In this document: in pieces, positions 4,803 through 9,905 of the stretch
How the letters are laid out: the number at the start of each line of letters is the position of its first letter
Position numbering within the stretch: the first letter of the stretch is position 1
Assembly (NCBI GenBank): GCA_963169655.1
Contig: CAUJCM010000001.1
Coordinates: 186,001-250,000, forward strand
DNA length: 64,000 nt
Direction: 5' to 3'
DNA from: Patescibacteria group bacterium
GTDB lineage: Bacteria > Patescibacteriota > Gracilibacteria > UBA1369
Notes under the pieces: model-generated
The model's input: only the letters and a program-made list of their open reading frames with translations
The model's database searches: none
What the model was told of the DNA's origin: nothing
Translations under genes and position numbers: made by a program

Positions 4803-6311
4803 TTATCCTTCAATATGTACTTTTTGAGTCTTTTGATTGATGTCTATATCTTTAATGAGTAGAGCAAGGAAAGCTCCAATAAAGGTGATAATTGCAGAAA
4901 TAACATAAACAGTACTAAAGCCATGTACTTGTGCCTTAAGAGTGATTAAAGATGTGAATTGACTAAATTCGATTGGAGTAAGTCCATGGAATGAACTAAA
5001 ATTTGAAAGTTTGATAATATTATTTTCAACAGAAGTATTTAAAATTGTTCCAAAAATAGCTATTCCAAAAGCTCCAGCTATATTTCTTGCTAGAGCTAAC
5101 AGTGATGAAGCAATGCCAATTTCTTTTGAAGGAATAACTGCTGCAATGATATTTGTTCTTTGAGCCATACCAAATCCCATACCAAATGACATAATTAATA
5201 GTGGGATAATAATGTCGCTTACTGTTGATCTTGGATCTAAAAAACTAAATAAATAAATACCAATTCCTGCAATAAAAGTACTAATAGCAATAATATATTT
5301 TGGCTGAACTTTTCCTGTAAATCTCCCTCCAATTGGAGCTGCTGTCATCATTCCAAAAGCCATTGGCATAAAAATATAACCTGTTTGAGTAGCATTAAAA
5401 CCGAGGAAAGTTTGAACAAAAATAGGAATTAAAAATAAACTTCCCATCATTCCCATAAATACTATGAAATTATTTAAAAGAGTTTGAGTGAAAATTGTAT
5501 TTTTAAAATATTTTAAATCTATCAAAGGATCTTTTAAATTTTTTTCAATTTTAATAAAGTAAATTAAACTGATAATTGCTATTAAATAATTTGTAATACT
5601 ATTTAAAGACAGCCATCCCCATTCAGCTCCTTGGTCGAGAACTAAAACTAAAGAGGCCAAGAAAATTCCAAGAACAATAGCTCCTTTAATATCGAAATGT
5701 GTATTTTTAATGTCTTGTGATTTAGATTCAGAAATAAAAGCTAAAGCCATTAAGATTCCAATAAGTCCAATTGGTAAATTAATTAAAAAGATCGATCTCC
5801 AACCTAAAATATCAATTAAAGGACCTCCAATTAAGGGTCCAAATACAGCGGCAGCAGCAAATGATGCAGACCAAATTCCCAATGCTTGGGCTCTTTCTTT
5901 ATTGTCTTCATAAGTCACAGCAATAATGGCCATGGCGGTTGGATAATCGGCGGAACCTGCAATAGCTTGAATGATTCTAAAAATAATCATAGAAGTTAAA
6001 TCCCAGGCAAGTCCTGCAAGAATTGACCCTAAAATAAAAATAGAAAAGCCAATTATATAGATTTTTTTTCGTCCTAGAATATCGCCAAGTTTACCCCAAA
6101 TTGGAACAAAAATTGCATTAGCTAAAATATAAGCAGTAGCTATCCAACCAGCAGCTGAAACTGTAATTTTAAATTCGTCAATAATATGTGGAAGCGCAAG
6201 ATTGACTATAGTTTGGTCTAATCTTCCTAAAAAAGTACCAACAATTACAGTTAATAAAATTAACCATTTTGGAATACCAGAAGCATCTCTTTTTACATTT
6301 ACTTTATTCAC
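4803..6311 (-). CDS. MFS drug/ion exporter, DHA2 (EmrB/QacA) family
   Basis: A 502-aa membrane transporter whose hydrophobicity pattern fits 14 transmembrane helices, as in proton-driven DHA2 exporters. It has the early FLGRLDQTIVNLALPHI segment (TM1), the motif A-like GKLGDILGRKK loop near residue 72, and a glycine/proline-rich motif C region (FGPLIGGPLIDILGW, about 155-170). It is the last gene of a MarR-adaptor-adaptor-pump operon, 12 bp downstream of the EmrA-like gene. Substrates in this family are hydrophobic drugs or metabolites; which one is exported here is not visible. Confidence 0.9.
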   Translation of the reverse strand: MNKVNVKRDASGIPKWLILLTVIVGTFLGRLDQTIVNLALPHIIDEFKITVSAAGWIATAYILANAIFVPIWGKLGDILGRKKIYIIGFSIFILGSILAGLAWDLTSMIIFRIIQAIAGSADYPTAMAIIAVTYEDNKERAQALGIWSASFAAAAVFGPLIGGPLIDILGWRSIFLINLPIGLIGILMALAFISESKSQDIKNTHFDIKGAIVLGIFLASLVLVLDQGAEWGWLSLNSITNYLIAIISLIYFIKIEKNLKDPLIDLKYFKNTIFTQTLLNNFIVFMGMMGSLFLIPIFVQTFLGFNATQTGYIFMPMAFGMMTAAPIGGRFTGKVQPKYIIAISTFIAGIGIYLFSFLDPRSTVSDIIIPLLIMSFGMGFGMAQRTNIIAAVIPSKEIGIASSLLALARNIAGAFGIAIFGTILNTSVENNIIKLSNFSSFHGLTPIEFSQFTSLITLKAQVHGFSTVYVISAIITFIGAFLALLIKDIDINQKTQKVHIEG

Positions 6312-6323
6312 TGAGATTTAATA

Positions 6324-6965
6324 TTATTTATAAATTTTTACTTTAGCGGACATACCATTTTTAAAGTCTGGATATTTCGAAATGTTGTATCTTATTTTTA
6401 TATTAAATTTTTGAATTTGTCTCTTGTCTGAAATACTGAAAACAATATCGCCAGTATTACTTACAGGACTAATTTCTTCAATAAATCCATCAAATGTTTC
6501 TTTCCCAAAAGAGTCAACTGTAAATGAAACTTTATCTAAAACTTTAAGATCTTTTAGTCCTTTGTCTTCATCTATACTAGCAATTATTCGCATTTGATTT
6601 GGATCATACATAGTAGCAACTGGTAGAGAAGGGGAGTAATTGGCCCCAAAATCTTCTTTGATCATTGTAATTATACCAGCAATTTCAGATTGAATAATAT
6701 TGTCTCCAACTCTAGCTATAGGTTGATGAGCTGAAACTTGTTGACCTTCTTTAACATAAACTTCTTTTAAAATTCCTGGAGTTGAAGAAGTGAGTTGAAT
6801 AAGTGGAACTTTAACAAATGCATTATCACTTTCAATATATTTTTGGTTTTCAATAAAATAGAAAACTCCAAATATACTTCCAACGATAAATAGTATTAAT
6901 AGAAGTGTAATAACTATTTTATTTACGATACTAGATTTTTGATTGTTTTCTTTTTCTTGCTGCAT
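6324..6965 (-). CDS. HlyD/EmrA-like membrane fusion protein, short form
   Basis: A 213-aa protein with one N-terminal transmembrane helix (about 15-36). A biotinyl/lipoyl-like beta domain follows (VPLIQLTSSTPGILKEVYVKEG and ..QPIARVGDN.., about 48-92), then a beta-barrel domain to the C-terminus. It lacks the long alpha-hairpin of classical EmrA (usually ~390 aa), so it is about half the normal length. The hairpin may be supplied by the adjacent long adaptor. It sits between that adaptor gene (9 bp) and the MFS pump (12 bp). Confidence 0.82.
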   Translation of the reverse strand: MQQEKENNQKSSIVNKIVITLLLILFIVGSIFGVFYFIENQKYIESDNAFVKVPLIQLTSSTPGILKEVYVKEGQQVSAHQPIARVGDNIIQSEIAGIITMIKEDFGANYSPSLPVATMYDPNQMRIIASIDEDKGLKDLKVLDKVSFTVDSFGKETFDGFIEEISPVSNTGDIVFSISDKRQIQKFNIKIRYNISKYPDFKNGMSAKVKIYK

Positions 6966-6974
6966 ATTTAAAAA

Positions 6975-8519
6975 TTAGTTAATTAAAATTTTGTCATTAG
7001 GATTGAGGCCTGATAAGACTTCAATAAGATTATTTTGAATTTGTCCAACTTGAATATCTTGTTTAAGTAATTCTTGACCTCTTTGGAGATAGACAAATTT
7101 TTGATTATTATCGTCAATATTTAAACTTTCAATTGGGATTAAAAGTTTATTTTGATTGATGTTTTGATCAGTAAAATTGAGTAGGACATTTAATTGTTGA
7201 TTTGGATTAAATGGAAGATTTGGTAAGTAAAATGTGATTGTAGATAGTTGGCTTTGTGGATTGGCTATTGTGGAAATTTGCTTAATTGGAAGATCGATGA
7301 ATTTATCTCCATAAGGTATTTGAGCTTTTTTTACTTTTAAAATATCTTCATTTTTTACTTCGACTTGAAGCTCTAAATTATCTGGATTGATGATTTGAGT
7401 TAAAATATTTTGAGGTCCAATTAAATCTCCTTGATTAGCCATTGAACCGTAAATTATTCCATCAATTGGTGCATAAATATTTAAAGTTTCTAGTTGTTGT
7501 TTTGCATTATCAAAATTAATTTGTGCTAGGTGTAATTGATTTTGAGCTTGTAAAGAATTTAAATTATTTTTAATGGTAGCTCCTTCTTGATTTAGTTTTG
7601 CTGTTTTAATTTGGTCAGTACTTTCTCCTGTATAGCCCATTTTTAATTTACTACTTTCTTGATTGATTTGAGTTAAATCGTTTTGTAATTGATTTTGTAG
7701 TAATTGAGTTTTAATTTGATTATTAGATAACTCAGCAGAATTAGTGATACTATTTTGATTTAATTGAGCAATTTGTATTTGATTATTTAATGAAGATTTC
7801 TTTTGTTGATAGTCTAAAGTTGCCGAATTTAATTTCTTAATTAATTCATTTTTTGCTTGAAGGTCAGTTGTTGAGTCAATTAATTGATTTAAGTCATTAA
7901 TATTATTGTAATAATTTGTATTTAAATAATTTAAATTATTTTCAATTTCTTGAAGACTTAAATCTGCTTTTTGAAAATTTTGTTGAGTAAGGAAATTATT
8001 ATTTTCTAAGTTATTTTGTAAGATATTTTTAGCTTCTTGATTAGCAGCTAGATTGTAGTTGAATGTTTTTAAATCATTTTCAAAAGCTTTAGCTTGATTT
8101 TGGGCTGAGTTAATTTGAGCTTGAGTTAAATTAAGAGTATTTTGATTAGCTAATTCAATTTGTTTGAGATTTTCTTTAGCTAACTCAAGATTATTTTGTG
8201 CAATTTGGAACTGCACTTCGAGAGGGTGTTTTGAATTATTAACACCTCCAATTTGATAGAGTAAATCACCTTTTTGAACTTGATCCCCATCTTTAACAAG
8301 GGATTTGATGATTTGTCCTGCATTTTGAGATTGAATTTTTACTTGTTCTGCAGAATGTACATTTCCAATGAAGTTTTGACCTGTGGAATTTTGGCTGATA
8401 GGTGTGATGAAATTGCTTTGTAGAGATATTGAAATTTCTTCTTCTTCTTGATTTTGAAAAGGTAATTGGCAACTAGTGAGGATAAGGATTGTCGATAAGG
8501 AAATTATTTTTTTAAACAT
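6975..8519 (-). CDS. Lipoprotein membrane-fusion adaptor with very long Gln/Asn-rich coiled coil
   Basis: A 514-aa periplasmic-adaptor-type (HlyD/RND MFP) protein. The N-terminus is a lipoprotein signal ending LTSC (Cys17). A lipoyl-like half (AGQIIKSLVKDGDQVQKGDLLYQIGG, about 68-93) leads into a predicted alpha-helical coiled coil of roughly 240 residues that is very rich in Q, N and L (about 100-345). The second lipoyl half (IYAPIDGIIYGSMANQGD) and beta-barrel domains run to the end. The family normally bridges an inner-membrane pump to an outer partner. CPR cells are generally thought to lack a classical outer membrane, so the partner here is unclear. It is the second gene of the MarR-led operon. 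Confidence 0.82.
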   Translation of the reverse strand: MFKKIISLSTILILTSCQLPFQNQEEEEISISLQSNFITPISQNSTGQNFIGNVHSAEQVKIQSQNAGQIIKSLVKDGDQVQKGDLLYQIGGVNNSKHPLEVQFQIAQNNLELAKENLKQIELANQNTLNLTQAQINSAQNQAKAFENDLKTFNYNLAANQEAKNILQNNLENNNFLTQQNFQKADLSLQEIENNLNYLNTNYYNNINDLNQLIDSTTDLQAKNELIKKLNSATLDYQQKKSSLNNQIQIAQLNQNSITNSAELSNNQIKTQLLQNQLQNDLTQINQESSKLKMGYTGESTDQIKTAKLNQEGATIKNNLNSLQAQNQLHLAQINFDNAKQQLETLNIYAPIDGIIYGSMANQGDLIGPQNILTQIINPDNLELQVEVKNEDILKVKKAQIPYGDKFIDLPIKQISTIANPQSQLSTITFYLPNLPFNPNQQLNVLLNFTDQNINQNKLLIPIESLNIDDNNQKFVYLQRGQELLKQDIQVGQIQNNLIEVLSGLNPNDKILIN

Positions 8520-8546
8520 AAAATTATTTGAGTAAAATTGATGTGA

Positions 8547-8978
8547 TTAAGTATTATTTTGAATTATTTTTTGAGTAATATTAATTAGAAAATCTAGCTC
8601 TTCATTTGTTAGATCTTGAAAGTATTTTTGAACTTTTGATAAATGTTCAGTTTTAAATTTTTTAAATTTACTCAAACCTTCTTTAGATAATTTGAGGTGA
8701 GTAATACGGCGATCATTTGAACTTATTTCTCTAATGATGAAATTATTTTTTTCGAGGTTATCAATTATTTGAGTAGCTGCACTACTAGAGATCCCAAGAT
8801 AATTAGCAATATCTTTAACTGTGATATTTGTTTGGTGACTAATCAAATAGAGAATATGAATTTGAGGAGGTGTGAGCTTATATTCTTTTAAATATTTATT
8901 TTGTTCACATAAAGCTAATTTTTGTACAATACGGAAATTTCTTAGTAATTTTTGAATTTTATTTACACCTGTTGGCAT
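8547..8978 (-). CDS. MarR-family transcriptional regulator
   Basis: A 143-aa winged-helix regulator. The recognition helix region ITVKDIANYLGISSSAATQII (about 70-90) and the wing segment with EISSNDRRITHLKLS fit MarR/SlyA proteins, including the conserved D-R-R of the wing. The first gene of an operon encoding two adaptors and an MFS exporter, it probably represses that operon and itself and is released by a pump substrate. A consensus promoter and a perfect palindrome lie just upstream on its own strand. The ligand is unknown. Confidence 0.9.
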   Translation of the reverse strand: MPTGVNKIQKLLRNFRIVQKLALCEQNKYLKEYKLTPPQIHILYLISHQTNITVKDIANYLGISSSAATQIIDNLEKNNFIIREISSNDRRITHLKLSKEGLSKFKKFKTEHLSKVQKYFQDLTNEELDFLINITQKIIQNNT

Positions 8979-9008
8979 ATTCTTTGCATATTTTTAATTT
9001 AGGTTGTA

Positions 9009-9036
9009 ATTATATTAGTGGCTTAACTATTGTCAA
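9009..9036 (-). promoter_or_regulatory. Consensus promoter of the MarR/efflux operon
   Basis: Read on the minus strand: TTGACA (9036-9031), 16-nt spacer, TATAAT (9014-9009). Both hexamers are perfect sigma70-type boxes. Transcription would start near 9002, about 24 nt before the marR ATG at 8978. Confidence 0.8.
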
Positions 9037-9053
9037 GAAAAAAATGTAGTTTT

Positions 9054-9070
9054 ATTTAGATAATCTAAAT
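9054..9070. promoter_or_regulatory. Perfect 17-bp palindrome, candidate MarR operator
   Basis: ATTTAGAT-A-ATCTAAAT is a perfect inverted repeat ending 17 bp upstream of the -35 box of the marR promoter. Its size and AT-rich dyad fit MarR-family operators, although these more often overlap the promoter. Assignment to this MarR is an inference from position. Confidence 0.55.
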
Positions 9071-9077
9071 TAAAAAT

Positions 9078-9106
9078 AAAAAAACCTCGAATCATTGAGG
9101 TTTTTT
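9078..9106. terminator. Bidirectional terminator hairpin
   Basis: CCTCGA / TTGAGG stem (9085-9090, 9095-9100) with one G-T pair, flanked by A7 on the left and T6 on the right, so it can work in both directions. On the minus strand it would insulate the marR promoter region from transcription entering from the ncRNA candidate upstream. Confidence 0.7.
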
Positions 9107-9183: not shown

Positions 9184-9211
9184 GAAAAAACCATCCAAGA
9201 TGGATGGTTTT
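9184..9211 (-). terminator. Rho-independent terminator ending the ncRNA candidate
   Basis: Stem CCATCCA-AGA-TGGATGG (9191-9207) with flanking A/T pairs. On the minus strand it is followed by TTTTTTCT. No protein gene ends near it, so it most plausibly terminates a minus-strand non-coding transcript. Confidence 0.75.
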
Positions 9212-9870
9212 AAAGTGCCCCCCTAAAACTTTCCCAAGCTTCTGTAAAACATTTAAGACTACCTATAAAATTCAATACAATTTTTTAGATGTATTTCCTT
9301 TTACAAAAGAATTTTATCTCTAGCGACCATAACCGAAATTACAGCGACCAAAGAATAATAAATTTAATTTAAATCAGACCATTAAAAAGAACTTTTCTTT
9401 TCACCCCTTCTAAATCAATGCTCTTTACTTGAATTACATTACTGCAACTCTTGCTCAAACACAGAATGCTTTTTACCTTAAAACCTTGCGAGAATAAGAC
9501 AATTATAACATTCTAATTAAATTTATTAGATCAAATCCTAATTTCTTCTCAAATATCCTTCGAGACATTCCCCGTGAATTATTCAAGAAAAAAAATAATC
9601 CCTATTGACGTCCCCAATAAATTCTTGCGAATCTACTAAAGCGAGTTAGTTGAAACTAACTTAAACAACAGGTTTATTACAGAAACCTTCTTACTTTCGT
9701 AAGTAGGAAAGTTTTAGGAAGGGTAGACAAACCTAAGCCTTAAATATATTTACCCTATATTATAAAATGGGTGTTTAGACCTAAAAAGTTTGTCAACTCT
9801 TCCTAAAATACTTTTTACCTAGTTTTTAAATGTCTTTTTGTTTTTGATTATTGTTCATTTATCAATGAAT
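9184..9870 (-). ncRNA. Candidate large structured non-coding RNA (~690 nt), unclassified
   Basis: Nearly 800 bp without any plausible ORF, bounded on the minus strand by a good promoter (9877-9905) and a strong terminator (9184-9211). Inverted repeats are abundant. A 13-bp perfect helix joins 9706-9718 to 9222-9234 across 470 nt. A 10-bp helix joins 9712-9721 to 9799-9808 and continues with a 7-bp helix 9726-9732 / 9788-9794. Local hairpins include 9690-9703 (CTTAC/GTAAG) and 9644-9661 (GTTAGT/ACTAAC). The two long helices share 9712-9718 and cannot form together. I see no RNase P CR-I (GAGGAAAGTC), no tmRNA ends and no SRP core. The exact 5' and 3' ends are inferred from promoter and terminator. 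Confidence 0.6.
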
Positions 9871-9876
9871 CATTAT

Positions 9877-9905
9877 ATATTACCCCATATAAAAAATTAT
9901 GTCAA
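9877..9905 (-). promoter_or_regulatory. Promoter of the large ncRNA candidate
   Basis: Minus-strand TTGACA (9905-9900), 17-nt spacer, TAATAT (9882-9877). The initiation point would be near 9870, inside the gene-free stretch and downstream of the methyltransferase stop at 9979. Confidence 0.65.

Follow-up and report, generated by a model that had tools for sequence, protein, structure and literature searches.

A large structured RNA gene of the Gracilibacteria group, absent from Rfam, with two mutually exclusive conserved helices at its ends

In the 64,000-nucleotide stretch of a Patescibacteria genome analysed here (the window), positions 9184-9905 contain no sizeable open reading frame, raising the question of whether they encode an RNA and, if so, whether that RNA belongs to a known family. 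Large structured bacterial RNAs without an assigned function are few, and the recently studied ones are RNA-only assemblies or RNP machines. The original prediction placed a large non-coding RNA of a CPR bacterium at this locus, citing the lack of open frames, a minus-strand promoter and a strong terminator. The signals hold up: the longest overlapping frame is 52 amino acids and lies on the other strand, the TTGACA-17-TAATAT promoter is present at 9905-9877, and an 11-bp stem at 9211-9187 (minus strand) precedes a T-rich tail. The window copy measures about 686 nt between its predicted start and the T run of the terminator. Terminator-like sites exceed expectation (4 observed versus 0.7 expected) and promoter-like sites, taken alone, do not (4 versus 10.3). 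The longest ATG frames within the RNA are unlike among distant copies, and no conserved peptide was found in these short frames. Coordinates of all features are collected in Table 1.

Table 1. Features of the RNA locus in window coordinates.
Feature	Position	Strand	Evidence or remark
Large structured RNA gene	9184..9870	-	Fold z = -11.2; homologues; covariation; forward strand folding better than reverse
Sigma-70-type promoter (predicted), TTGACA-17-TAATAT	9877..9905	-	Same relative position in 10/12 copies (script)
Intrinsic terminator (predicted), 11-bp stem then T-rich tail	9187..9211	-	Terminators in 10/12 copies (script)
Helix H5, CCUGAU/AUCAGG, enclosing H6 and H7	9600..9672 (9666-9672 with 9600-9606)	-	Two-sided change in 5/7 pairs
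Helix H14 with GNRA tetraloop, candidate tertiary docking loop	9427..9454	-	GNRA in 12/12 copies
Conserved core, covariance model R1 (helices H9, H12-H14)	9418..9596	-	Covariance model building and class search
Strand a, 5′ arm UUUUAGGAAG	9799..9808	-	Partner strand b; helix H1 runs on to 9786
Strand b, inner strand CUUCCUAAAACUUUCCUA	9704..9721	-	Alternative partner of a and c
Strand c, 3′ arm GGAAAGUUUUAGG	9222..9234	-	Partner 9706-9718 of strand b

Homologues were found by sequence and then by covariance model. Searching 99 related genomes by blastn recovered the RNA in five others along with two chance matches (L006 and L007, both inside long open frames and not recovered by the class model search), and using a relative as query gave further copies, including a second one in genome G002. 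Two other loci (L023 and L024) were discarded as homologues for want of a covariance model match. The model, R1, covers a 177-position core and, applied to 353 genomes of the class, identified 12 copies in 11 genomes, all of Gracilibacteria/Peregrinibacteria type and spread over three families of one order. No copies beyond the same order were seen in 380 genomes drawn from the phylum, with the proviso that the strict filters applied to genome sets of this size could miss very diverged members; relaxing the search on 39 negative genomes gave chance-level scores only (best E = 0.09). The guess of a CPR host was correct, as five homologous records are labelled Candidatus Peregrinibacteria, Peribacteria or Gracilibacteria. 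The copies occupy intergenic stretches of roughly 680-1000 bases. Promoter and terminator signals were both found by script in 10 of the 12, with lengths of 609-686 nt, and were read by eye in the two where the script failed (L002 and L004), so that promoter and terminator signals belonging to the RNA itself are conserved in the relatives.

Evidence for structure comes from both the window copy and the alignment of the 12 sequences. The minus strand of the window copy folds at -186.2 kcal/mol, compared with -137.3 ± 4.4 for shuffled sequences, 49 kcal/mol below the shuffle mean (z = -11.2). In the alignment, the forward strand reaches a consensus energy of -188.6 and the reverse strand only -122.5, and because the reverse folds less well we consider the minus-strand orientation correct. 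The consensus comprises 174 pairs in 17 helices with 88.4% of cells paired, two-sided compensatory change in 100 of the 174 pairs, and a score of 0.475 versus 0.244 ± 0.009 in shuffles. Every measure is higher than in any of the 500 shuffles or any slid structure, although in these two controls the structure itself comes from the alignment being tested, a bias from which a control by simulation and refolding is free. Since relatedness can mimic covariation, we generated 30 alignments by simulating independent sites along the tree of the RNA itself, gave them the gap pattern of the real alignment and folded each afresh. The consensus energy of the real alignment (-188.6 kcal/mol) compares with -22.6 ± 4.6 in the simulations, and its 100 two-sided pairs with 24.8 ± 5.9 (maximum 36). 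A structure-free scan of all column pairs recovered ten helices, as against 0-2 per simulated alignment. Compensatory changes at this locus go beyond phylogeny, and the locus is, with near certainty, a real structured RNA.

Two apical loops stand out from the consensus. UUCG or other sequences substitute for the loops of H7 and H12 in some copies, while H14 keeps its GNRA loop throughout, and H14 is therefore a candidate docking loop. The apical loop of H16 (window 9384-9402) is nearly invariant, reading NAAGU in 11 of 12 copies and AGAGU in one, and is a possible kissing or protein-binding site.

Having established an RNA gene, we turned to its identity. At gathering score, Rfam matched only a tRNA in the whole window and nothing at 9184-9905. 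Lowering the threshold to E = 10 for the region gave no credible match, only low scores below gathering, and cmscan down to E = 1 at eight homologue-bearing loci returned no convincing non-coding RNA family other than tRNA. The covariance models of OLE, ROOL, GOLLD and HEARO were among those unmatched at these thresholds. RNase P RNA and tmRNA were rejected as identities as well, both lacking a family model match here and having separate genes elsewhere in this genome, as they do in the relatives tested; the original prediction had likewise found, by eye, none of the diagnostic pieces of RNase P RNA, tmRNA, SRP RNA or 6S RNA. The RNA is not a member of OLE, ROOL, GOLLD, HEARO, RNase P RNA or tmRNA by this test of model match. 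The open-access literature on structured RNAs of Peregrinibacteria, Patescibacteria or the candidate phyla radiation yielded no description, an earlier one elsewhere being possible. Judged by Rfam and the open literature, the family is very probably undescribed. The two checks suggested together with the prediction, a covariance search against Rfam and a homologue search with a covariation test, have thus both come out on the side of a large non-coding RNA, which conservation, covariation and the absence of an Rfam match jointly support. Absence from Rfam, a streamlined CPR lineage, strong covariation and competing end helices make it a concrete object of study, and it shows that CPR genomes, for all their scant non-coding sequence, still harbour unlisted RNA families.

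The most distinctive element of the structure is found at its ends, where one inner strand (b) can pair with either the 5′ arm (a) or the 3′ arm (c) over 7-8 shared bases, an arrangement that is new here. Arms a and c carry the same 7-8 base sequence, and helices a-b and b-c overlap on 7-8 bases of b, where they are mutually exclusive. The original prediction had noted a perfect 13-bp helix closing the interior; the match is exact (9706-9718 with 9222-9234), but a simple closing role did not survive, the helix being one of two that compete. In helix a-b, nine consecutive pairs are of standard type in all 12 copies, and two of the nine show two-sided change. For b-c, 90.6% of the overlap cells are paired and 11 cells are two-sided, versus 3.8 in shuffles. 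Both helices are also among the ten of the structure-free scan, and we take both as real. In one clade (G043, G055, G050 and G078), a changes from UUUUAGG to GUUGCAGG and b from CCUAAAA to CUUGUAAC together, with c reading GUUGCAAG in two members and GGCUACA in the other two. As the joint change of the three strands comes mostly from this clade, it counts as few evolutionary events and may be a single one. A U-A-U triple helix of the three strands was considered and is unlikely, given the mixed GUUGC/GUAAC sequence of one clade.

Because each of the two exclusive helices is conserved and shows compensatory changes, the ends of the RNA probably exchange partners. When b-c is imposed, the energy penalty is 3.8 kcal/mol for the consensus and 0-7.7 for individual sequences. 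Energy models, which are imprecise for RNAs of 600 nt, prefer b-c in the window copy and in L003 and prefer a-b in the others, strongly in several copies, leaving the direction of the exchange uncertain. We lean moderately towards the exchange being functional, and its simplest role, by analogy with other RNAs, would be that of a folding checkpoint. In such a scheme the 5′ hairpin a-b would form first during transcription and shield b; once the 3′ end had been made, c would displace the base of the hairpin by branch migration and fix the long-range closing helix in place, bringing both ends of the RNA together on a single continuous strand. Once folded, the particle would work in trans, either as a stable RNA or as an RNP. 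RNase P RNA, SRP RNA and tmRNA offer a precedent: structures formed early keep an upstream strand occupied until transcription has produced its partner (PMC13004024). The likeness is one of folding logic only, early local structure holding an upstream strand ahead of a later distant pairing (PMC13004024); those RNAs are unrelated, and the competing strands described here, unlike theirs, share one co-evolving sequence.

The genomic setting and distribution suggest how such an RNA is inherited. Neighbouring genes differ between genera and none was seen in common across genera, which argues for action in trans. The flank of the RNA locus was not found in G075, a genus mate without the RNA. Its patchy occurrence (11 of 353 class genomes) shows that most of the order can do without the RNA. 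The RNA of g24, a member of family f14, is closest to those of family f15 (67.6-68.5% with G037, 62.0-62.9% with G060), grouping with them in the RNA tree with a bootstrap of 98, and has only 54.8-58.0% identity to the RNA of g37 from its own family; the corresponding 16S values are 88.5-88.9% within f14 and 78.6-80.1% across families. Horizontal transfer, or an old duplication followed by loss, would explain this conflict between trees, and taken together with the patchy occurrence it points to transfer. The two diverged copies in G002 (L003 and L039) lie on different contigs and are sisters in the RNA tree with support of 96. No mobile element was recognised at the RNA loci, and blastn of phage and plasmid records did not find the RNA. 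Pattern scans of IMG/VR gave 8 matches in one case, none confirmed by the covariance model, and zero in two, so that neither phage records nor these scans place the RNA in phages or prophages as is the case for ROOL and GOLLD.

Comparison with known large RNAs bears out part of the original prediction’s likening of this RNA to OLE, GOLLD, ROOL and HEARO: size and style agree, and sequence does not. OLE is alike in its length of about 600 nt, chromosomal location, extensive conserved structure and candidacy as a stand-alone trans-acting RNA. It differs in that its model finds no match here and in that OLE adjoins the gene for its membrane protein partner, whereas no neighbour gene is conserved between genera here. 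HEARO, also a large structured non-coding RNA, accompanies an HNH nuclease gene (IscB), in contrast to the immediate neighbours tested here, which include no such gene, and it too is unmatched by model. ROOL is of comparable size (659 nt for ROOL env-120) and likewise has numerous helices, a non-coding gene of its own, an unassigned function and scattered occurrence, but its genes lie in phages and prophages, in many cases close to tRNA islands (PMC12286853), whereas no phage setting and no covariance-model match were found here. GOLLD is likewise large, highly structured and patchy, but often exceeds 800 nt, is encoded in phages and prophages (PMC12286853) and has no model match here. There is no tRNA array near our RNA; a single tRNA-Thr lies near it in only 3 of 11 loci, from three genomes of one genus (L078 8940-9014, L079 9185-9259 and L080 6787-6861).

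On balance, the reading that we favour, and hold to be reasonably likely, is that the gene stands alone and encodes a large structured RNA which acts in trans, belongs to an undescribed Gracilibacteria-group family and has ends that exchange partners, a stable trans-acting RNA or RNP being the most likely nature of the product. A bolder form of it, which we put forward tentatively and think somewhat doubtful, is a three-strand end switch whose two conserved global states would act either as a checkpoint in folding or as the working stroke of a machine made of RNA, the RNA having moved horizontally among CPR bacteria. By analogy the RNA may work like the ornate RNAs, and one specific version of this, which we judge unlikely but worth weighing, is a homo-oligomer in the manner of ROOL, GOLLD or OLE, in which the free 7-8 base arm, the GNRA loop or the H16 loop contacts another copy. 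Its length of 609-686 nt, dense helices and lack of identified protein partners are in the style of the RNA-only complexes seen by cryo-EM (PMC12286853), and the GNRA loop of H14 in 12 of 12 copies, the nearly invariant H16 loop and the patchy occurrence with transfer fit as well; against it, the covariance models detect no sequence kinship to those three families, and phage records and IMG/VR scans provide no phage or prophage setting.

A regulatory or catalytic use of the competing helices is considerably less probable. The internal guide of a group I intron pairs in turn with its two exons, and a strand that can choose between two partners has a geometry that recalls such a guide, but no Rfam intron or ribozyme model matches, and an RNA with its own promoter and terminator signals interrupts no gene. 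That the locus instead acts in cis, as leader or 3′ region of a neighbouring gene, is highly improbable: the MarR-efflux operon does lie downstream on the same strand in the window, but two terminators intervene, the operon has a perfect TTGACA-16-TATAAT promoter of its own, and elsewhere the RNA adjoins unrelated genes, often in opposite orientation. We give equally little credence to there being no RNA gene at all, only a decayed or AT-rich stretch with a chance fold. Low G+C speaks for this reading, but covariation far over the phylogenetic null and conservation across three families contradict it, and simulation on the RNA tree refutes it as regards conservation of structure.

Relative to the favoured trans-acting RNA, two observations concern its surroundings. 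Just past the predicted start, the leaders of most relatives (L002, L004, L005, L032 and L034-L037) carry a boxA-like element, GTTCYTTGAAAA or GATCYTTGAAA. BoxA-type sequences occur in ribosomal RNA leaders, and the element hints, as a lead, at antitermination; the window copy has it in weak form only, and it does not resemble what is seen in the 16S leaders. In the window, the minus-strand region 4803-9106 holds an EmrAB-like efflux operon with genes for a MarR regulator, for two proteins of HlyD type and for an MFS transporter. Its predicted promoter lies at 9036-9009 (minus strand), the second terminator, at 9106-9079 (minus strand), falls between the RNA and this promoter, and a palindrome, TTTAGATAATCTAAA, at 9055-9069 may be the operator of the MarR operon.
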